Origin: Physocladia obscura
Taxonomy: Eukaryota > Chytridiomycota > Chytridiomycetes > Chytridiales > Chytriomycetaceae
Length of the DNA: 21,878 nucleotides
Assembly: GCA_027596945.1 (NCBI GenBank)
Contig: JADGJH010000224.1
Coordinates: 1 to 21,878, forward strand
Reading direction: 5' to 3'
A program made the translations under genes and the position numbers. Of this stretch, positions 4,098-19,389 are shown in pieces (position 1 is the first letter of the stretch; every line of letters starts with the position of its first letter). The notes under the pieces are model-generated. The model had not been told where the DNA came from and did not search any database. It saw only the letters and a list, made by a program, of their open reading frames with translations.

Positions 4098-5828
4098 ATG
4101 ACACAGACTGTCGAGTCTTCGCCAATTCTCCCGCTGTCCGCGCCAGTCGCTGTCTCCATCATCGTAAACTCTCTACACGCCGCTGCCTCCAAAGAGCCAA
4201 TTGCGCTTTTTGTTGCAGCTCTGAACCAACTCGCAACCACGACAGTTGCAAGTGTGACCGTAACCTGGACCTCTCACGCCGGTCATGCCCGATCTCTTGC
4301 GCGTGCTGCAATCGCGAATCCCGATCCCAATACCAGCACTAATACCGTCGAGTCCGTTATTGTTGCCGTTGGTGGCGACGGAACCATCCACGAAGTCCTC
4401 AACGGAATAATTGCACGGTCCCAAGAATCAAATCAGTCACGTCCATCGAACGTTACTCTCGCAATTATTCCCACAGGGTCCGGAAACGCGCTGGCTACCA
4501 CCCTCGGCTTCATCTCTGTTGAACAGGCTGTGAGTTATAGTATTGCGCCATTCAAAATCGTGCAACCTTCAAAAAATTTTGCTGAAAATTCGTTCCACTA
4601 GATTGATTCAGTCATCACTCATATTTCCTCCCGCTCTTCGCCATCTGATTCTTCCATCGCAAATACAGCTACAACTACTACTACGCGGCCCTTGCGACTT
4701 TCTTCGTTTGCGATTGCTCCTCCGCCGTTAACTTCCACAACCAACATATTAACTTCTTCCAATATTGAATCTCGCCATCAAATTGATTGGCCTGCGCCTC
4801 TTTGCGTTTGTTTTTGTGTCGTTTCTATCGGTCTTCATGCCCAAATCGTCAAGCAATCAGAGTCGTTACGATTTTTCTTAAAGAGCAAGTCCAGGTTTAA
4901 ACTAGTGTGTCAAGTGAAGCGACTGAAAAAAAAGAGAAGGAAAAGAATACGAAGCGAGTGAAATGAACGAAGCAAAAGATGGAACTACATTATTTTCGTT
5001 CCATACATTCATCTACCACAAGTGTATTTAACTGGCTGTTTTTCCAATCATTACGCTAGATTTCTTTTGGTTGCAATCTTTAACATCATATTCCTAAAAA
5101 CATACTGGGTTAGTTAAATGATGAATTTTCAGTTCATTATTAACGACAAAAATTTATGTTATATAGTTACGATTGTGGACAAGCGTCGACTCAAAAACTT
5201 TTTCTCAAGATTCGCGAACGTTCGTTCCAGATTCCGCTAGTTCCACAATAATCGACACTATAACTGGCGAACAACGCGAAAATGAAGTTCGCCTCATATA
5301 CGAAGGAAAACTCGGCACTTCATATTTTGTGTCATCAAAGGTAGAACACATTACTAAAAATGAAGCGAAAAAGACTCTAAAAAATAAAAAATAAAAAACA
5401 TATATAAGGTGACGCACTTTGAAAAAGGGTTTCATATTTCTCCAAGCGCAGATCCATCGTCCCGCCAAACGGACTTGATCTACACAACAACAAAGTTGCG
5501 CAAAAATGTTCAAGAAATGCTTGGAAAAGCTTCCGGAGATGCATCGCACCTGCTGCTTCCTTTCGTGACGGCTCAAAAAGCTCGCGCGTTTGTGTTTGAA
5601 TCCGTTTCAGATAGCGAAGGCGACAGCAATTCTCGCGTGAATATTGTAGCCGGATTTTTGAAGAGATGGGTGTTTTGGTGGTGGAAACCATCTGTTTCTG
5701 CGGCTGATGTTTGTGTTGATGGAGAAATGTATCGGATTCCGTCTGGGATGGCGTGTTGGATCAGAGATTTGGATGACGACACTCAGATTTTCCATATTGT
5801 CATACCACCATCAGCTACTTCCTCTTGA
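4098..5828 (+). CDS. Lipid kinase, diacylglycerol / sphingoid-base kinase superfamily
   Basis: Five exons: 4098-4529, 4602-4894, 5060-5108, 5167-5340 and 5409-5828 (introns of 72, 165, 58 and 68 bases), giving 455 residues. The catalytic DAGK domain is clear. The nucleotide-binding loop VGGDGTIHEVLNG starts at residue 91 and the PTGSGNALA loop lies at 125-133. After a Ser/Thr-rich insert (about 158-195) comes the second lobe with GLHAQIV, a stretch of the ...SRF...FLKTYW type, and a C-terminal beta region with HISPSA and the DGE of the family at 420-422. Known enzymes of this family transfer phosphate from ATP to diacylglycerol, sphingoid bases or ceramide; which substrate applies here cannot be told. 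The first intron is 72 bases and contains the in-frame TAG at 4599, so unspliced RNA would be truncated. Exons 2 and 3 (donor GTTTAA, acceptor CTAG) are the least certain junction. An AATAAA follows the stop. Confidence 0.85.
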
Positions 5829-6642
5829 CTGCCAAAAAAAATAAAGATAGAGAGTCACTGTTTTTCTAATTTTTTTTTTTTTTTTAAATTTTATTTGGAC
5901 TTCAAGGAAGTGAACTTTCTCAAACATGACTGGTAAAATTGTTCATTGAAAGTGCGGTTTTCGGGAAATAATTGGCTGTAATAATACGTTTCCACAAGTA
6001 TTTATTCAACTTTTTGACGTTGTAAAATTCTTTACTGGTATTAAAATATTGCATTTTAATGTTACTGTGTCAGGGATTCTAGAACCCGACACTGTTTCTA
6101 TTACAAATATTGTATTTGTTGCCTGTTTTAAAAATTAGTACATCTGACTAAGGAAAGATAGTAATAATCCAAAAACTACAAACTTTAACGTTTTTATAAT
6201 TTCAAGAATTGTCTATCTGATATTGATTGCTGATTTTTAGCAATTGTACTGTATGAAGAAGTTGCGATGTCATTGTCTATTAGCGGATTGGATTTAGTTT
6301 CCACAAAGCAATTGCACAAAACCAAAAAAAAAAAATCCAAAAAAAAAATAGATTCCAATGGTTATCTAAACTGTGGTTCTATTTGCTTATAACAGTAGAG
6401 ACTCTGAGTAGTTTTGCTTTTTTTTTTGATATCATTGCCAGCCGATTCAAGGAATAATCAGCTTTTGTATTATTGAATACCTCATCTGCTCCTTTGTTTC
6501 TGCAATCAATAATTCATGTGCAAAGAAATCTTTAATATAAACCAACGAATTAATTAGCTTTCAATCGTCGCTTTCCTTTTTTTTTTTTTAAATTTTTTTT
6601 TTTGATTTTAAGGGGTTTGAGAGATTACAATTGCTGAAAGAA
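5829..6642. other. Intergenic region between lipid kinase and first seven-helix gene
   Basis: AT-rich, with long T runs at about 5869-5885 and 6578-6603 and A runs near 6325-6349. It contains a decayed minus-strand copy of the seven-helix family (listed separately). Nothing else is recognisable. Confidence 0.6.
5925..6135 (-). pseudogene. Decayed antisense copy of the seven-helix membrane protein family
   Basis: Reading the minus strand, one frame gives a stretch with WKR followed by NYFPKTALSMNNF, which matches WKRGDIIVENYFPQTAKTM of the intact gene at 6643-7536. At the DNA level the match extends upstream: a CAATATTTG segment with nearby GAAACAGTG corresponds to the TM2 end of the intact gene, and AAGAATTTTACAACGTC matches AAGAATTTTGCAACATC before TM3. 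Stops and small deletions interrupt every frame, and the first and last thirds of the gene are not visible. The copy lies in the opposite direction to the tandem pair, so an inversion or an inverted duplication took place. Borders are approximate. Confidence 0.7.
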
Positions 6643-7536
6643 ATGAACAATACCACTGTAATATCAGACTGGAAATGGAATACTCTCAAAAATGCAAATA
6701 TTTCAGCTGCGGCAATTTCAGGAGCATCATTTTTTTTTCTAATTTGCTTTATATGGAGTTACGAAGTTGAAACCAAAATATTGCAAAACAAACTCGGAAA
6801 ATCAATAACAACATTCAACATCAGTTTAACAATGATAATTCTTTCAACAACTGCAATATTTGCAACAGAAGCAGTTTCAATTTCTTATCTTACAGATACT
6901 GATATAATAACAGATTTATTGCAGTACAATATTGAAACTGCTATAAAGAATTTTGCAACATCAACAATTGAATATGGATATCTTCAATATTCTTGGAAGC
7001 GAGGAGATATTATTGTTGAAAATTATTTCCCACAAACTGCAAAGACAATGAGCTTTGTTGTTGCAACATCAGCGGCTGTATTTTATTTACCGTTCATATG
7101 GTCTATTGTCCGATTTTTTGTATCTGCTACTTTCGTCCAAACCGTTGCAAATTATTTGAGCGCAATCCCACCATTTGTAGTTCTGACATTTGATATTATG
7201 CTGCTAATTGCGTTTGTGAAGTTCTTGCGGGAGACGCGCTCATTGGTATGTTTACCTCAGTCAGACGATTTGCAAATGAGCATAATATCAAATCATGGCA
7301 TTTGCACAATTTTTGTAATATTTTGTGGAATTAGCTTGTTTGTCAGCAGTGTGGCAGCACCGTTATCTAAATTTGAGAAGCGGCTGCTTCTTTATTTTTC
7401 ATATATTGCATTTTTGGCTGTTATTATAATTCTGTTGTCACAAAAGGTGGCACTCTATTTAAGCAAAGATAATAATGGAAAGACAAAAAGTGAATTAAAT
7501 AAGCTACGAAATTCGTTATTGAAAGATTTGCCTTAA
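6643..7536 (+). CDS. Seven-helix membrane protein, copy 1 (unrecognised family)
   Basis: Single exon, 297 residues, starting at the ATG at 6643; an in-frame TTG 12 bases earlier is not needed, and the paralogue starts with the same MNN. Seven hydrophobic segments are visible at about residues 20-39, 62-83, 100-117, 137-159, 170-193, 215-238 and 247-268. The loops after helices 1, 3 and 5 and the C-terminus are rich in Lys and Arg, so the positive-inside rule puts the N-terminus outside and the tail inside, as in G-protein-coupled receptors. The outside N-terminus carries a sequon (NNT). Marks shared with the other copies are QYSWKRGDIIV at the inner end of helix 3, a PPF...F(D)..LL.AFVKFL helix 5, and LSQKVALY after helix 7. 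No rhodopsin-type DRY or NPxxY motif is present. A receptor or transporter role is only a guess. AATAAA overlaps the stop. Confidence 0.8.
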   Translation: MNNTTVISDWKWNTLKNANISAAAISGASFFFLICFIWSYEVETKILQNKLGKSITTFNISLTMIILSTTAIFATEAVSISYLTDTDIITDLLQYNIETAIKNFATSTIEYGYLQYSWKRGDIIVENYFPQTAKTMSFVVATSAAVFYLPFIWSIVRFFVSATFVQTVANYLSAIPPFVVLTFDIMLLIAFVKFLRETRSLVCLPQSDDLQMSIISNHGICTIFVIFCGISLFVSSVAAPLSKFEKRLLLYFSYIAFLAVIIILLSQKVALYLSKDNNGKTKSELNKLRNSLLKDLP

Positions 7537-7654
7537 TAAAACAGAGATAATGTATCCTGTTATCACTTTTTATGTTTGCAAATAGATTTATATTTCACTT
7601 AGACAAAAATTTGATTTGATTTTATAAGAGATTAGCATATTTCTGTAATATAAA

Positions 7655-8552
7655 ATGAACAATGAAGAGTCGAAATGGAATGCTCTTATAGGATTAAACA
7701 TTGCAGCGTCAATAATATCTGGATTATCTCTGTTTTATCTTGTCTACTTTGTTGTTAAATACGAAACAAAAGCAAAGACATGGATCGATTTATTTCGACA
7801 AGCAACAACTCCTTTTAACGTCAGTCTCACAATAATAATAATCTCTTCTTTGATGATTTTTGCAACACAAGCAATCATTACTTTCTACAGTATGAGCGCA
7901 GCAGAATCAGTCTCTCAATTGAAATACCAGATTTCCCAAATAGTGCAACAATTTGCAACTTCGACTTTTGATTATCAATACATCCAATATTCTTGGAAAC
8001 GCGGTGACGTAGTTGTTGGTTGCTCCCTCAGAAGTGCAGAACCTTTCATGAAATTTATTGTGACCGCATCTCCACTCTGTTACCTAAAGTTTATCTGGTT
8101 AATAATTCAGTATTTCGTATCATCATCTCCAGTTGCTACTATCGCACTTGTATTGAAAGCAATCTCACCGTTCTTCATTATAATATTTGAAACGATTCTC
8201 TTGACAGCATTGGTAAAATTTCTGCACGAAGCACATGACTCGATCTCAGTTGATAATTTAAGGATGCGGATTATAGCTTCACATGGAATATATACAATAT
8301 GTGCCATAATTATTGGAGTTGCAATAAATGCTGTAGGTGTAATAGTAATAACAGACGTATTTCAAGAAATGCTCGTGTTTTATTTATCGTTTTTGCTTTT
8401 TCTGGTGATTATTGCGATTTTGATTTCCCAAAAAATTGCACTCTATTTTAACAAACAACGTAATCTGAAAACGCGAGAAAGCAAAGAGCGAAACAAATCA
8501 AATGTACCCGAAAATTCACATTCATTAACAGTCAAAATATCATCAACGTCGA

Positions 8553-8557
<5 letters not shown>
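7655..8557 (+). CDS. Seven-helix membrane protein, copy 2 (unrecognised family)
   Basis: Single exon, 300 residues, 118 bases behind copy 1 in the same direction, so a tandem duplicate. The start MNNEESKWN lines up with MNN...WKWN of copy 1. Layout and motifs are the same: seven hydrophobic segments, FNVSLTI in helix 2, IQYSWKRGDVV at 113-120, a long helix 5 ending in ALVKFL, and ISQKIALYFNK after helix 7. The tail is longer, very basic and then Ser/Thr rich, a possible phosphorylation region. Sequence identity to copy 1 is moderate, so the duplication is not recent. An almost pure A tract of about 40 bases starts at the stop codon. I do not recognise the family; function unknown. Confidence 0.8.
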
Positions 8558-8583
<26 letters not shown>

Positions 8584-8600
8584 AAGAAAGAAAAAGGAAA
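8556..8600 (+). repeat. A-rich tract directly after the stop of copy 2
   Basis: About 45 bases that are nearly all A, with one C and a few G, begin within the TAA stop at 8555-8557. It may be a simple 3' UTR low-complexity tract. An inserted poly(A) tail of a retrocopy would look similar, but no target-site duplication can be seen. Confidence 0.7.
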
Positions 8601-8669
8601 ATTTAACTATCAAATTATTTTCTTCAGATTTTGTGTTAACTTTCTCAAATAAATATTTTAAAAATTGAA

Positions 8670-8784
8670 AGAGACTGGCATCTTCCTATAAAATGAGCAA
8701 TACCATTGCAACAGGCTGTTCTTGCACGAAGAAAAAGCACAGTGCACTATCTTCATCTTTTCTAACATTAATATTTTTATAAAA
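8670..8784 (+). pseudogene. Leader and start remnant of a further seven-helix copy
   Basis: The bases GAGACTGGCATCTTCC followed by TATAAAATGAGCAAT resemble the leader of copy 2 (GAGATTAGCATATTTC, then TATAAAATGAACAAT), and ATGAGCAATACCATTGCAAC resembles the first codons of copy 1 (MNNTTV). The frame stops after about 29 codons and nothing of the membrane part follows. A second start of the same kind lies at 8784, which begins the larger remnant. So either two broken copies lie end to end or one leader was duplicated. Confidence 0.55.
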
Positions 8785-9202
8785 TGAATAATAGTGCTGT
8801 AATAGAGTTGAAATGAATGTTCTTGTGGAAGGAAATATTATACTGGCAACAATAGTCGAACTATTACCATTTTATCTCATCTACGGCGTTGCGGTAAAAT
8901 ACGAAACAGTGGCAAAAATCAACATTTATTTATTCTGGTAATGAATTTGTCAACTTTTTAGTAAACTTGATTTCTGCTTCGGTAGTTAACTGATGAAATT
9001 AAGAGTTTAGACTACTCACTGCCAAAAGGCAAATCTCTCATGAAGCTAAATATAATCGCAAATTCGTTCCCCTTGTATTTCCCTGCTATATTCAATTATA
9101 AAAATTGATCTTGTCTTTCGTTGTCGCGATTTTATTGAATGAAATCGTGCCATTCACTGTGGGGATATTTCGACTGGCATTTATTAAAATTGTGAGAATT
9201 TA
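8784..9202 (+). pseudogene. Decayed third tandem copy of the seven-helix family
   Basis: The start ATGAATAATAGTGCTGTAAT corresponds to MNNTTVI of copy 1. The next codons match the TGGAATGCTCTTAT of copy 2, but one G is lost (GAAATGAATGTTCTT), which shifts the frame and creates a stop. In the shifted frame helix 1 is still readable (PFYLIYGV.VKYET.AKI, compare FYLVYFVVKYETKAK). Helices 2 and 3, with the WKR motif, are gone. KGKSLMKLNIIANSFPLYF corresponds to helix 4, and a frame with VPFTVGIFRLAFIKIVRI to helix 5 (PPFVVLTFDIMLLIAFVKFLR). Helices 6 and 7 are not recognised. It lies 226 bases behind copy 2 in the same direction. Confidence 0.75.
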
Positions 9203-10224
9203 ACAAATGACCAAAATGAAACAAAATTTCTCTCCTCCATTCACAATCTTTCATTCAATCCGCTATAGACCAGTCATCATTTTTTTAATCACACTTGTTT
9301 TCATTTAGCCGTAACTTTTTTTGAATATTTTCGTTGAAATTTTTGGAGTTGTTTGAACTTTTACGTTGATTAAGGAAAACTGCAAGAAGGGACATGTTCA
9401 TTAAATGAAAGCTTAGTTAAGATTCCGAGGAAGAAATTTATCAAGGAAAAAAAATTTTGGTTACATGCGTTGTTCACAGTGTTGAAATAAATATGATAGT
9501 TTTCAGTGAACACAGTTTATTATCATACTTTTTTAGTTTAGCGAAAAAAAAAATTAAAAAAATAAAAATACAGTAGAAAATATGAATTATGTGTTATTTA
9601 AAAAAATTATAAAATTAGTGAATTATAATTCTTAAAAAAAATCCCCAAAAACTGTCGGCATAAACATTACACGAAAGGCACAAGGTAAGCATATTGCAAT
9701 TATAATTACAGGAAAACAATTTTCCAGTTCCAGTTAAACTACCTAACTGAACATTTTATTATTTCGTAACTTCACTTCACTTCTTGCCTTGATTAAATAT
9801 CAGACAAGGTTGATGGAATTTCGTTTCTCAAAATAATATGATCAGGATTCCTCAGCAAGTGCTCCATCAGATCCAAATGTTACCGCTGTGACGATCTTTA
9901 CGGCTACTTTGATTTCAAACTCTAGCTATATCAATTTAGCTGGCAATTTCAATTAACGATGGATGCCTGCCACAAAACTGTATGAACAAACAACTATTTG
10001 GCAACATAAGCTCCAGTACGACTAACGTTTACCTGATTTTGTATCGCATAATGTTTGGCCCAAAATTTGACTTAACCAAATGATTAATACATTCCTATCC
10101 ACCTTGTCGCACTGCTTTCATTTTGACATAGTTAGTATTTTTGTGTGTTTGCGAATTTGAGTTGAATAAATACATTTTATTATTTTCAGAAGTTGAAAAA
10201 GCACCCAGACAGAGCAGCACTATA
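9203..10224. other. Intergenic region between decayed copy and Hub1 gene
   Basis: AT-rich, with A runs at 9448-9456 and 9542-9566. A 36-codon open stretch behind a possible acceptor (9846-9957, Ser/Asn/Thr rich) is not recognisable and probably chance. Otherwise I see nothing. Confidence 0.5.
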
Positions 10225-10831
10225 TCAAGAGTAATACAGCTCCAAATTCATTCCATCGTGGATTTCATCTGGAAGGGAAAAAAAGTTAGTTAGCAACCTG
10301 TCCGCCTATTCAAATGCTTTCTCCTGCTTCGCTCGTTTGAAATATGAAGTACTCACAATCATCAAGAGTAATATGATCCTTGTAGACATTGTACCACTTT
10401 TTCAAAATGATTTTATCTGGCTTTGTGCCGATTTGAGCAGCAATGAGTTTCTTGAGATCGCCAACTGTGTCGTCACCGCTAAAATAAATCTATAATTATT
10501 ATGAATTTTGATGACGGATGAAAGGAGTAGAAATTCGATAGATTGTGATTCTGGATGCTTTACTCTCGTTTCCTCTGTATTTCACTTCCCTTCAACTTTT
10601 TTCCACTTGCTTCGGATACATTCGCCATACTTTCTCGCAATCAGTTCACGCAAAATCAAATAGAAACGTGCTTGAGTAAAGCAAAGAACAAAATGACTGA
10701 AACAAATCGGATCTTGTGGATGTGGGTGTGATGGTGGGTTTGGAGGTTGGGATGGGAGGGGAAGTGGCGGACATACTTGCATTTGACCCTGACCTTCTTT
10801 CCGAGTCGATCGTTGACAGTGATTTCAATCA
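10225..10831 (-). CDS. HUB1: Hub1 / UBL5 ubiquitin-like splicing modifier
   Basis: Coding exons on the minus strand: 10831-10777, 10478-10357 and 10268-10225, with introns of 298 and 88 bases (donors GTATGT and GTGAGT, acceptors TTTTAG and TTCCAG). Together with one base from an upstream exon they encode 73 residues, exactly the usual length. Diagnostic parts are [50 protein letters not shown] and the C-terminal Tyr-Tyr followed by a single residue. Hub1 acts without conjugation: it binds HIND motifs of spliceosomal proteins such as Snu66 and modulates alternative splice-site use. Asp22, which contacts HIND in yeast Hub1, is present. The first exon begins with TG after an acceptor TATAG at 10832-10833, so the A of the start codon must come from an upstream, mostly non-coding exon; GTG at the same place is not a normal start. 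The donor is uncertain (10908 or 10937 are candidates). Confidence 0.93.
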
Positions 10832-10937
10832 CTATAAGATATCAAAGGAAAAGCATTAGTCGGTTACGTTGCGTGTGTGTGCAACGTCGAATAGTAAGGC
10901 AACTGAACTCGTTGGTTTTTGGAACAAAAGAATGAAC

Positions 10938-11189
10938 TTATTCAGAAATGGCAGGAAAACAAGCGTTGTCAGCCTTGGAGAACGCGAATCGGACTAGCGG
11001 ATTTCCTGTTACAAGATTAACTTTAGAGACAGCATTTGGAGGGGCACGTTTTGCACGATGATAATCATTCGGACTGCGATTCGCAGTCGCAAAGCCATGA
11101 AGCTCAACACAGTCACAGTATCGATATAGGTTCCCAACGCTGGATTTGCACACTCCACATTTTGCGGAGATGCCGAATTCGCGTTTCAT
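10938..11189 (-). CDS. Uncertain small cysteine-containing ORF
   Basis: An ATG frame of 83 codons, upstream of and on the same strand as the Hub1 exons. The N-terminal part has CGVCKSSV followed by YCDC, a spacing that recalls the zinc-binding half of CRIPT-type small proteins (CxxCK..V....YCxxC), but the last spacing differs and no CRIPT N-terminal exon is seen. The rest is not recognised. It overlaps the place where the 5' exon of the Hub1 transcript should lie, so it may be 5' UTR of that gene or a chance frame. Confidence 0.25.
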   Translation of the reverse strand: MKREFGISAKCGVCKSSVGNLYRYCDCVELHGFATANRSPNDYHRAKRAPPNAVSKVNLVTGNPLVRFAFSKADNACFPAISE

Positions 11190-11554
11190 GTTGACGTGTT
11201 ATATTTGTGGATGGAGATGTATTAACATACGGAATTGTTTTACAGCGTTAACTTCAGTGATTGATTTAAAAATTAAGATACAATAATGGAGGGCCGAATA
11301 AAGAAGGGAATCATCAAAATTTTGAGTTCTATTATTATATATACCCTCTTGAGTTGAAATAAAAAAAATGCGACTCTTTCCTTTTTTGCTCTGCAATAAA
11401 AATCGGCAATCTTTGTTCGATGTTTGCAGGTTACTTTTGAAGCACCGCAAGCATTCTTGTATTGAGTAACCCATCTGTGGATCGTAGGTACAGACTTAGA
11501 TAGTTGCTAGCTTTTCATATTTATTCTTTGAAATTTTTGTTAACTTTTTGTTTT
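11190..11554. other. Intergenic region 5' of the cysteine ORF
   Basis: AT-rich; a 91-codon minus frame at 11199-11474 has no family resemblance. This is also the 3' flank of the third seven-helix gene, which ends at 11555. No other signal seen. Confidence 0.45.
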
Positions 11555-12604
11555 TTATGTTTTCTGGGGCTTGAAAGTTGCAGTTTGAGACAATAGCAAA
11601 ACAGTGTCATTTTTCACACTATTTTCCCTGCCTGATTCACGTACTTTTCTTAATTTTCGAAGAGCGTCTTTGCCAAATTGGCGCTCCAAGCTCATTTCTT
11701 GTTGTTTTGCATTATTTTTCTTGTTCCAGTACAGCGCAAGCTTTTGCCTCAACAAAATTAAAGCAATAACCAAGTCGAATTCCGCACCAAATCCAACGTA
11801 TAAGAATACCCAGTTGTTTAGAAAGAGACTCCGGCCAACGACAACAAAAGTCAAGGCAACAAACATGGCGACATTAGCAAAAATTCCATAGAAAGCAATA
11901 ATTTTCAACCTCGAGGTATCGACAGATATTGCCACGGAATTTCGAGAAATACGCAAAAATTTAATGAATGCGAACAGCAAAACAGAATCAAAAATGACCA
12001 GAAGTGTTGGAGGTATGACCGTACAGATGGAAGCAATAATTTGAAGAAGTTGCGAATTAGAATAGATCATTGCAGCTGTTAGAAACGTGTCAAGATAGAA
12101 AATAAATGGTGATATTTTGACAAGAAATTTCATGGTCGATGAAGCTTTAGGAATAATTTGATCAACAACAATTTCTGCTCGCTTCCATGCATACTGAATA
12201 AAGGCAAACTCAAAAGTCGACGTGAAAAGTATTATAAACGTTAGCCCAATTGCAGCTTGTGTATCCGTTACTTGACTCGTAAATGATAACAATACTAGCT
12301 GCGTTAAATACACGCCAATTGTTGATAAAATTATTGTAATCAAACATGCGTTGAAGGGAGTTCCAAATTTACGAAAGCGGGTCATCCAAGTGTCTGTTTC
12401 CTGGGCTTCGAGGCGCAGCACAAAAAAAACAAATGCGAAAAATAAAGTTCCAGAGATAGAAAGCACAGCATATCTTGTGTTGAGTAAAATTCTCAGTTGG
12501 AAATCAGTGATATTGATCATTGAAGGTTGTGGGAACGCAAATCTTTCTAAATTTTTTTCGTTCCAAATTTCGGAATGTGTAATTCTGAACAGGAAAAATT
12601 TCAT
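11555..12604 (-). CDS. Seven-helix membrane protein, copy 3 (unrecognised family)
   Basis: Single exon on the minus strand. The frame gives 349 residues from the ATG at 12604. The ATG at 12520 (MINITDF) lines up with the MNN start of copies 1 and 2 and would give 321 residues, so the first 28 residues may be untranslated leader. The family marks are all present: TPFNACLITIILS in helix 2, FIQYAWKRAEIVV at 137-147 (long numbering), IPPTLLVIFDSVLLFAFIKFL in helix 5 (given here in part as a motif), and LRQKLALYWNKKNN after helix 7. The tail is about 50 residues, strongly basic, and ends with a Ser/Thr stretch. It is the most divergent of the three copies and lies in the opposite direction, about 3 kb from copy 2 with the Hub1 gene between. 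Function unknown. Confidence 0.8.
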   Translation of the reverse strand: MKFFLFRITHSEIWNEKNLERFAFPQPSMINITDFQLRILLNTRYAVLSISGTLFFAFVFFVLRLEAQETDTWMTRFRKFGTPFNACLITIILSTIGVYLTQLVLLSFTSQVTDTQAAIGLTFIILFTSTFEFAFIQYAWKRAEIVVDQIIPKASSTMKFLVKISPFIFYLDTFLTAAMIYSNSQLLQIIASICTVIPPTLLVIFDSVLLFAFIKFLRISRNSVAISVDTSRLKIIAFYGIFANVAMFVALTFVVVGRSLFLNNWVFLYVGFGAEFDLVIALILLRQKLALYWNKKNNAKQQEMSLERQFGKDALRKLRKVRESGRENSVKNDTVLLLSQTATFKPQKT

Positions 12605-14538: not shown

Positions 14539-15951
14539 TCAAACCAGCAACGGAGTTTCCTCATTAGATACGTCGACAACTTCTTCAAAAGATGCACTTT
14601 CAGCTCTTATTGAATCGATCCCGCTTTTCTTCAATCCCAAAAAGGCTGTAAGACATGAGCAGAAATCCAATCCAGCAATCAGAAAAAACAAAGCCTGTGG
14701 CATCCAAGAAACCGTTCCTTGATAAACCTTGTTGCATAAAACGGATCCAGCAAGTTGCGTTGCACTCAAGAACAGCTCAAGACTTCCAAACACGCGTCCT
14801 TGCATCTCGGCTGGTGTCAGAATCGATAGTAGAGATTTCGACGTTGGGTATGCAAAAGTTCCTAATGAAGCAAAAACTGTCGACACATAAAATTGCGTGG
14901 TGTCCCGCGAAATACCGAAAAAAATGCTGCTGACTGTCGCAGCAAAAAGAGAAAAGCGAAGCAATCGAATTTCCCCACTCATTTTGTCGCCGTTGTACTG
15001 CGAAATTCGCTCAAGCATAGGATGGCCTACTGTGAGGAGAAGAATACGTTGTGTGGATTTAAAGGACTGGAATTGGCCAATATCAAAGGCGTCCCATGCA
15101 AATGCTTTGGTTGGATACATTGTGAATAGTGGGCCCGATGCACTTAGAACAACTCCAAAAACCATCAAAATTAGCATTATTGATGCTGAAGCAGTGTGAG
15201 AAAAGAGGAATGATATTGTAGCGCTTGTTGTTGTAATTGATTCTTGAAAAATTTTAAGCAACTTTGATGACGAATTTGTGTTGGATGAACTGTTGATGTT
15301 GCCGCCACTTAGTCCGTTCCTTGTATCGGGAAATATAAAGAAAATATAAATCGCAAGTGCAACGGCACTGGAAAACATGATGGAGAACAGAGTTGGAAAT
15401 CCAAAAATCTTGGTAATATATCCTGCAAAAAGCGGACTTATAGCCGACGAGATTGATAATGCGCACAATTCAAACATGAAGTATTTTGTCCGGTTTATTG
15501 GTGTTGTTGTTGCGGCAATATATGCAGATTCGGCCATGGAAAATAGGGATGTGCCACCAGAGATTCCACAAATGAACCCCACAATCACAAGTGCATAAAA
15601 CGAAAGATTAGATATTGCGGCCAACAAATAGGCAAATGAGAGAACCAAGTATTGAATCAAGCCGGCTTTGAGCGCCGTCTTGTGCCCAAATGTGTCAACG
15701 AAGTATCCTGCGAATATAAGGACAAAGAAAGCTGGAACACTTTGGGACATTGTGAGCCAAAGGACCCAAGATGCAGTTTCCACTTGAACATCGGATCGTT
15801 TTGCGCATGTTTCGTAGTCTAATTCGAGCGATGCATCGAACTTGCTGCAAACCTTCAGTAGCAAAAATTGCTGAAACGGAGTTCCCATTAATAGGACAAA
15901 GCTTTGCATAAAAGCGACGACAATAGCATGTCCAGGATGAGGTTTGACCAT
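14539..15951 (-). CDS. Major facilitator superfamily (MFS) transporter
   Basis: Single exon, 470 residues from the ATG at 15951; an in-frame TTG 48 bases further upstream opens the frame but is not a likely start. About twelve hydrophobic segments are visible. MFS motif A between helices 2 and 3 reads GYFVDTFGHKTALK (about residues 82-95). A Gly-rich helix 4-5 region (GFICGISGGTSLF) and a short Asn/Ser-rich central loop separate the two halves. The first outside loop contains two Cys (35 and 49) and is long, as in SLC46-type and TetA-like carriers; a closer assignment is not safe. The C-terminus EETPLLV holds an acidic dileucine signal (ExxxLL), which in fungi often directs proteins to the vacuole. 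Substrate unknown. Confidence 0.85.
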   Translation of the reverse strand: MVKPHPGHAIVVAFMQSFVLLMGTPFQQFLLLKVCSKFDASLELDYETCAKRSDVQVETASWVLWLTMSQSVPAFFVLIFAGYFVDTFGHKTALKAGLIQYLVLSFAYLLAAISNLSFYALVIVGFICGISGGTSLFSMAESAYIAATTTPINRTKYFMFELCALSISSAISPLFAGYITKIFGFPTLFSIMFSSAVALAIYIFFIFPDTRNGLSGGNINSSSNTNSSSKLLKIFQESITTTSATISFLFSHTASASIMLILMVFGVVLSASGPLFTMYPTKAFAWDAFDIGQFQSFKSTQRILLLTVGHPMLERISQYNGDKMSGEIRLLRFSLFAATVSSIFFGISRDTTQFYVSTVFASLGTFAYPTSKSLLSILTPAEMQGRVFGSLELFLSATQLAGSVLCNKVYQGTVSWMPQALFFLIAGLDFCSCLTAFLGLKKSGIDSIRAESASFEEVVDVSNEETPLLV

Positions 15952-18348: not shown

Positions 18349-19389
18349 CTAACCCCAAAGCCCTCCTTGTATATCAACTTGGTTTGAAAGAGAATTTAAA
18401 TCAAGTCGGTGGTCTTTTTTCAAAAATTCAATAACAGCATGATGGTTGCCAATGGTCGCATTTCTTAGAGGCGAGTCGTAGTTACATCCACCAACATCCC
18501 AGTATTCCATCAAAGCATTGATGTTCACTTTTGTTTCAGACAACAGCATAGAAACAATTTGTATTGATCCAAAATAACAAGCGGCTCTGAGACAAGCCGA
18601 TTCATCCCAGGTGGGATCACAACGTGCATCAGAAAGCAGAAGTCGCGCAACGTGTAGATGTCCAGCTCTTGCAGCTGCAACAAGAGCCTGACTCTCATTA
18701 CCTTGCCTTCTAAAATCCTTCAAAAGAAGTTCGACAACGTTTATATGTCCGTTCAAGGCAGCAGTTATGAGATGAACGTTTTTCTGCAAAATGACCTCCT
18801 CCTCGCACCCATCCAACTCCAATATACTGCATTCGGCGTTTGGATCAACGCGAGAATCTTTGAGCAATAGTGCAGCTACATTCACGTGGCCATGCTCACA
18901 TGCAATACGTAACGCTGCATTTTCGTTTGCTGCTGGGTCATCTCCTGTTCGAATTAAATATTCAACAGCATTTATTGCTCCGCATCGCGCAGACCATCTC
19001 AACAGACTTCCAGTCCAATCAATCTTGTTGCTGCTGAATAAAAAATTGTAACTATCGTGTTTGACTGCGGTCGCAACGTTAATTTTGTGGATAGTTGCAA
19101 TTTCAACAGCGTTAGTCACTGTGTTTGGCGTTGCTAATTCGGCTGATTTATTCTTCCAGAACTCAGAATAAACTGTTAATGCAGCGCGATAGAATGGCGG
19201 CAGAATCGCCCAATCGTCGAACATTGTGACTTCTCCACGCAGATAAACATTGTGGATATGCTTTTTAACGCAAAACATATCCTCGAAAACCGCTGGAATT
19301 CTCAATGCCAATCGTATATTCTCGAGATTTCTGTCAATTGAAAGCTCGGCAATGATTGTTTGCTGGATTTCAAGTGCCAAGAATTGCAT
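18349..19389 (-). CDS. Ankyrin-repeat protein with F-box-like N-terminus
   Basis: Single exon, 346 residues from the ATG at 19389; the open frame begins 39 bases earlier with TTG, which is not a likely start. The first 45 residues (MQFLALEIQQTIIAEL then a Leu/Ile pattern) resemble an F-box helix set. From about residue 128 to 340 ankyrin repeats follow, of the LRxAxxxGHxxVxxLLLxDxRVDP type common in fungi; the clearest units contain CEHGHVNVAALLL, NGHINVVELLL and RAGHLHVARLLL. Such proteins may serve as adaptors of SCF ubiquitin ligases if the F-box is real; the target is unknown. A second frame upstream (about 19390-19520) looks coding-like but is not in phase, so the N-terminus may be longer than given. 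Confidence 0.8.
   Translation of the reverse strand: MQFLALEIQQTIIAELSIDRNLENIRLALRIPAVFEDMFCVKKHIHNVYLRGEVTMFDDWAILPPFYRAALTVYSEFWKNKSAELATPNTVTNAVEIATIHKINVATAVKHDSYNFLFSSNKIDWTGSLLRWSARCGAINAVEYLIRTGDDPAANENAALRIACEHGHVNVAALLLKDSRVDPNAECSILELDGCEEEVILQKNVHLITAALNGHINVVELLLKDFRRQGNESQALVAAARAGHLHVARLLLSDARCDPTWDESACLRAACYFGSIQIVSMLLSETKVNINALMEYWDVGGCNYDSPLRNATIGNHHAVIEFLKKDHRLDLNSLSNQVDIQGGLWG

Follow-up and report, generated by a model that had tools for sequence, protein, structure and literature searches.

Do the three intact, mutually similar genes that lie close together in a 21,878-nucleotide stretch of Physocladia obscura (contig JADGJH010000224.1, positions 1 to 21,878; hereafter the window) belong to a known family of seven-helix membrane proteins, and what might their products do? 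A preliminary description, made from the letters of the sequence, had taken them for an unrecognised family with rapid gain and loss, as in receptor families that face the environment. On balance, we think it probable that they represent an unrecognised, duplicating family of seven-helix receptors, similar to G-protein-coupled receptors (GPCRs), in a flagellate, probably chytrid, fungus. This reading draws on the spread of the family through the genome, on a predicted topology with a conserved inner face, and on searches in which no library named the family.

A dispersed and duplicating gene family

The locus runs in the following order.

5941..6122, minus strand: inverted relic of a gene-1-like copy, with helix 2-3 and YSWKR-region pieces (tblastn; outside 6643..12604)
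6643..7536, plus strand: gene 1 (W6643), intact intronless seven-helix open reading frame (ORF), 297 aa
7655..8557, plus strand: gene 2 (W7655), intact intronless seven-helix ORF, 300 aa, in tandem with gene 1
8810..8935, plus strand: relic with the helix 1 region of a third tandem copy (tblastn; a stop follows, as judged by eye)
10250-10850, minus strand: gene split over three exons (by eye) between the inverted seven-helix copies, which we take to be a HUB1/UBL5-like ubiquitin-like gene
11555..12604, minus strand: gene 3 (W11558), intact intronless seven-helix ORF, 349 aa, inverted

The three ORFs are uninterrupted, as first described, and are mutual paralogues, with pairwise tblastn identities of 41%, 35% and 32% (E 7e-63 to 2e-33), the highest value belonging to genes 1 and 2 and the 32-35% to gene 3 against either; the proteins align from end to end. 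Translation of gene 3 may in fact begin internally, at the Met of residue 29 (MINIT). Decayed copies do stand beside the intact ones. The relic at 8810-8935 matches gene 2 at 50% identity over 42 aa (tblastn, E 0.003), and a small local comparison at the DNA level gave 67% identity over 132 bp (E 3e-12); the relic at 5941-6122 was recovered as two pieces (E 7e-5) by tblastn of the window with the three proteins as queries.

Seven protein queries, two of them protein pieces, were searched against the assembly that contains the window (21.76 Mb, 1,222 contigs). A match counted as a family place if any one query gave it an E of at most 0.01; such counts are lower bounds. The family comprises at least 31 places on 20 of the 1,222 contigs, distributed as follows (number of places in brackets where more than one).

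C224 (3), C71 (2), C761, C459, C586 (3), C15, C884
C520, C1006, C1124, C1013 (3), C90 (2), C577, C435
C254, C681 (3), C25 (2), C52, C126, C131

The matches on C126, C131 and C52 and the second place on C71 are weak; two further short C90 pieces were left uncounted, and C77 (best E 0.31) was dropped. We studied 22 of the 31 places, several of the other nine being fragments or carrying stops, and estimate the live genes at about 20-25. Of these 22 members, 15 are full-length proteins encoded by a single ORF, six were joined from two exons, and one is C435, whose C-terminal part continues in another frame and was left unmodified. The proposal of rapid gain and loss is supported by the 31 homologous places and by decayed copies beside intact ones on C224, C90 and C1013. 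Less uniform than first described are the sequence marks that had been called strict: three of them occur in all three window genes, whereas FN(V/I)SLT occurs in two, the third gene reading FNACLI, and for the other three the exact form occurs in no more than 4 or 5 of the 22 members.

Homology across the family was assessed with hhalign on 18 members (C15, C90, C52 and C435 left out), whose four subfamilies (6, 6, 4 and 2 members) join at E 9e-9 to 2e-27 over 205-287 columns, against E 0.57 and 0.65 for controls with shuffled columns. In a tree of the 22 members the window genes group with C71, C761 and C459 (support 100/98), gene 2 pairing with its closest relative on C71 (58%) and gene 3 with its closest relative on C459 (69%); deep branches are not separated. 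Because each of these two genes pairs with a copy elsewhere, the tree suggests that the window cluster predates the spread of its copies.

Ratios of non-synonymous to synonymous substitution (dN/dS) were obtained by NG86 for seven pairs and by YN00 for five of them, synonymous-site values near or above 1 being saturated. They are 0.23 (NG86) and 0.32 (YN00) for gene 3 against C459, and 0.25 and 0.26 for gene 2 against C71, which shows purifying selection on the window genes; by NG86, C884 against C520 gives 0.26 and gene 1 against gene 2 gives 0.27. Higher values were found for C577 against C435 (0.41 and 0.66), for C586_1 against C586_2 (0.49 and 0.62) and for C586_2 against C586_3, the youngest pair (0.77 and 1.1), so that the youngest copies look to be under relaxed selection. 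The three young tandem copies on C586 (10149-15823) are 75-89% identical in their second exon, and the tail of the third is cut short by an earlier stop. That the copies are not real genes at all, being chance ORFs or remnants only, would fit the decay of some of them; it is hardly credible given the long intact ORFs, the dN/dS of 0.23-0.32 for two window genes and the subfamily profile-profile E values down to 2e-27, and the conservation pattern refutes it.

The absence of introns, originally proposed for the family as a whole, holds for the three window genes and for all 15 full-length single-ORF members, whereas six of the 22 members carry one intron; intronlessness is therefore a feature of some subfamilies, not of the whole family. 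The three C586 genes and C254 have a common phase-1 intron of 55-72 bases in helix 3, a few codons upstream of the Y-S-W-x-R motif, and in C25 (71 bases) and C681 (63 bases) a phase-1 intron sits four codons further on. Where multiple donors were offered, the one fitting the alignment was taken, and the C681 acceptor, AAG, was placed by homology. The contrast drawn with intron-rich neighbours stands in part: the diacylglycerol/sphingosine-kinase-like and HUB1-like genes are split (by eye), whereas two others, for MFS (14539-15951) and ankyrin (18349-19389) proteins, are long single ORFs. An open frame of the kinase-like gene lies at 4098-4601 on the plus strand (DAGK_cat, E 6e-17).

Predicted topology and the conserved inner face

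The topology analysis covered the 15 full-length proteins; W7655, on which the helix limits were placed by hand, also supplies the residue numbers used here. Hydrophobicity gives six clear helix peaks and a weak helix 3 (peak about 1.0), and the charges of the loops alternate as expected of seven transmembrane helices. Lys plus Arg amount to 1.5-2.3 per 10 residues in the inner loops and tail, 1.0 in the N-tail and 0.1-0.65 in the outer loops, which average 6-9 residues. The positive-inside rule predicts an outer N-terminus and an inner C-terminus for 15 of 15 proteins; the inner set is richer in Lys plus Arg both by number and per residue in every one of them, the margin being narrowest for C761 and C90. 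In inner loop 3, acidic residues are as numerous as basic ones. The N-tail carries a glycosylation sequon in 14 of the 22 members against 2.4 expected, as at N2/N3 of gene 1 (MNNTT).

This orientation bears on the insect-type gustatory-receptor-like (GRL) ion channels, which share with the present family seven helices, a multigene family and occurrence in flagellate fungi. GRLs are known from two Spizellomyces chytrids, and their N-terminus is intracellular (PMC7746228). The charges indicate the orientation opposite to that of insect OR/GRL channels in 15 of 15 proteins, N-tail sequons are enriched, and that source gives a single candidate GRL in each of the two fungi. We set the GRLs aside because of topology and regard membership among them as very unlikely.

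The inner loops are well conserved and the outer loops vary. Relative entropy is 1.9-2.0 bits in the inner loops, 1.07-1.15 in the outer loops and 1.8 in the N-tail (start Met included), and within the helices conservation increases from the outer to the inner side (Spearman 0.28, p 3e-4). R116 at the end of helix 3, G211 and L58 are invariant in 22 of 22 members, D/E179 inside helix 5 and Y/H210 are each kept in all 22, and K/R260 at the end of helix 7 is found in 21 of the 21 members having that part; because the members share ancestry, these counts do not represent independent observations. Helix 7 ends in QK.ALY, MK.ALH or similar. The tails of W11558, C459, C761 and C90 have in common, by eye, a motif of roughly LE..(L/I)GK..L.(K/R), possibly an amphipathic helix following helix 7. 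Judged from sequence, the anatomy of the family is receptor-like, and the receptor function initially put forward is plausible.

In the mechanism we propose, these small proteins of about 270-350 aa and seven helices would work like GPCRs. The outside would be faced by an N-tail that is short and in many cases glycosylatable, together with very short outer loops that differ between paralogues. The conserved cytosolic face, comprising the end of helix 1, the start of helix 2, the invariant Arg at the end of helix 3, the end of helix 5, the start of helix 6, the Lys at the end of helix 7 and a basic tail, would couple to an effector, most likely a G-alpha of the genome. Six G-alpha gene regions are present (two on C713, two on C438, one each on C19 and C973; exon matches grouped by eye), a large set for a fungus. 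A radial-spoke protein scores over the cut-off in the genome, and the organism therefore builds motile flagella. Surface location, ligand sensing, G-protein coupling and use in zoospores are what we infer for the family.

Searches of known families and predicted structure

Searches by sequence left the family without a name. With hmmscan, no Pfam family scored over its cut-off in 22 proteins or pieces, namely 12 intact members and ten further proteins or pieces, nor in a scan of the three window genes. Among the ten, C25 is represented by two pieces of the same gene and C77 by one (E 0.31, outside the family count). GPCR families were absent from the hmmscan lists at a maximum E of 10, where the HMMER filters drop most matches above about 0.1. 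Sub-cut-off matches confined to single proteins, among them tetraspanin (0.17), the ER-lumen receptor (0.016), RDD (0.016), Hus1 (0.014) and glycophorin (0.012), were rejected as chance. The PDB gave no sequence match at E 10. Among 5.8 billion proteins no match was found for a 12-row profile, a 6-row profile or one window protein; the two profile searches scored only roughly 8,000 candidates sharing most words, and this result, having no positive control for chytrid content, says little on distribution in chytrids. An open-access literature search, with most subscription papers outside its scope, found no paper naming the family. By the tests run, then, the family belongs to no named GPCR family, and its description as unrecognised was upheld against Pfam, PDB sequences and the large database.

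The two AlphaFold models are poor (predicted local distance difference test, pLDDT, 42 and 54); the better one shows seven helices of 27 or more residues at low confidence, and the other is too broken for a helix count. In a Foldseek comparison of the better model the top matches are mostly GPCRs, although they are weak (E 0.12 or worse, TM-score about 0.3-0.4) and the list also includes microbial rhodopsins and channels.

The rhodopsins and channels in that list would also suit small seven-helix transporters or channels that move a solute or an ion and whose copies multiply as dose or substrate range matters. Further features in their favour are D/E179 and the basic residue at the end of helix 7, which could serve transport, and the very short outer loops; yet no Pfam transporter or channel family scored over the cut-off, and the top fold matches, weak as they are, are mostly receptors. 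We consider transport unlikely. Rather improbable, too, are divergent seven-helix housekeeping proteins (trafficking, lipid handling, accessory or chaperone roles) expanded in the lineage. They are hinted at by a match of one intron-bearing member to the endoplasmic reticulum (ER)-lumen receptor (E 0.016, 16.5 bits), but this occurred in one of the 22 sequences scanned and lies below the cut-off of 25.6, and it is uncommon for housekeeping proteins to have decayed copies next to live ones and outer loops that vary.

A 2025 survey of 1,357 fungal species recognised 17 GPCR classes and left 1,969 clusters of unassigned seven-helix proteins (PMC12842992). Its consensus new receptor candidates, in the parts of the survey drawn on here, are confined to Agaricomycotina, and because the analysis covered mainly the largest of the 1,969 clusters, the Physocladia family could be hidden among the rest. 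For Chytridiomycota, the corresponding parts of a 2012 survey report no reliable homologues of Ste2, Ste3 or Git3 and describe animal-type receptors instead (PMC3251606). As far as these sources go, new receptor candidates have thus been proposed only in Agaricomycotina and chytrid GPCRs are mainly animal-type; a receptor-like family of about 31 loci, named by no library searched, would offer concrete genes to test. More tentatively, the family may form a new fungal GPCR class, unrelated in sequence to the 17 recognised ones: lineage-specific chemoreceptors with roughly 20-25 live genes under birth-and-death evolution, like vertebrate taste or odorant receptors, by which swimming zoospores would find and recognise substrates or hosts.

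Comparison with known receptor systems

The nearest comparison within the same genome is with Dicty_CAR (PF05462), the cAMP-receptor-like fungal class 5 GPCRs, found over the cut-off (best E 2e-11) at four places, on C318, C642 (two) and C196, with a fifth place on C196 below the cut-off and with a stop. These too are seven-helix genes, mostly single open frames of 318-377 aa and partly neighbouring, whereas the third inner loop is, by eye, shorter in the Physocladia family. Profile-profile comparison with three of these Dicty_CAR members detected no relationship: it gave E 0.33 for the whole family and 0.08 for the best subfamily, against 0.16 for an MFS control and 0.65 for a shuffled one; the Dicty_CAR profile has three rows (one incomplete at both ends) and an effective number of sequences (Neff) of 1.95, which leaves room for a very remote link. 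For Git3, one weak match below the cut-off (E 0.01) is the Dicty_CAR gene at C318.

The pheromone receptor STE2, a class D GPCR, has no sequence link to the family and is not among the Pfam matches of its members; a genome scan for STE2 found no match even in control genomes and is not evidence of absence. Class 1 GPCRs (Ste2) are, in the parts of the 2025 survey drawn on, found only in Ascomycota (PMC12842992). The DUF6534 proteins of Agaricomycotina are likewise an expanded, lineage-specific seven-helix family, for which membership in a new fungal GPCR class has been proposed from indirect evidence (PMC12842992), but they belong to another lineage, and Pfam DUF6534 is not among the matches of the Physocladia family. 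Microbial rhodopsin (Bac_rhodopsin) is also missing from these matches, and the conserved K260 of the family sits where helix 7 reaches the cytosol rather than in the middle of the helix.

The vertebrate bitter receptors, TAS2Rs, are proteins of about 300 aa with short tails and outer loops, encoded by intronless, clustered genes that undergo birth and death. Only a weak fold match and no sequence link connects them with the Physocladia family, and we know of none of its motifs in TAS2Rs. The likeness lies in size, in short tails and outer loops, and in intronless clusters with birth and death, and TAS2Rs rank high in the Foldseek list.
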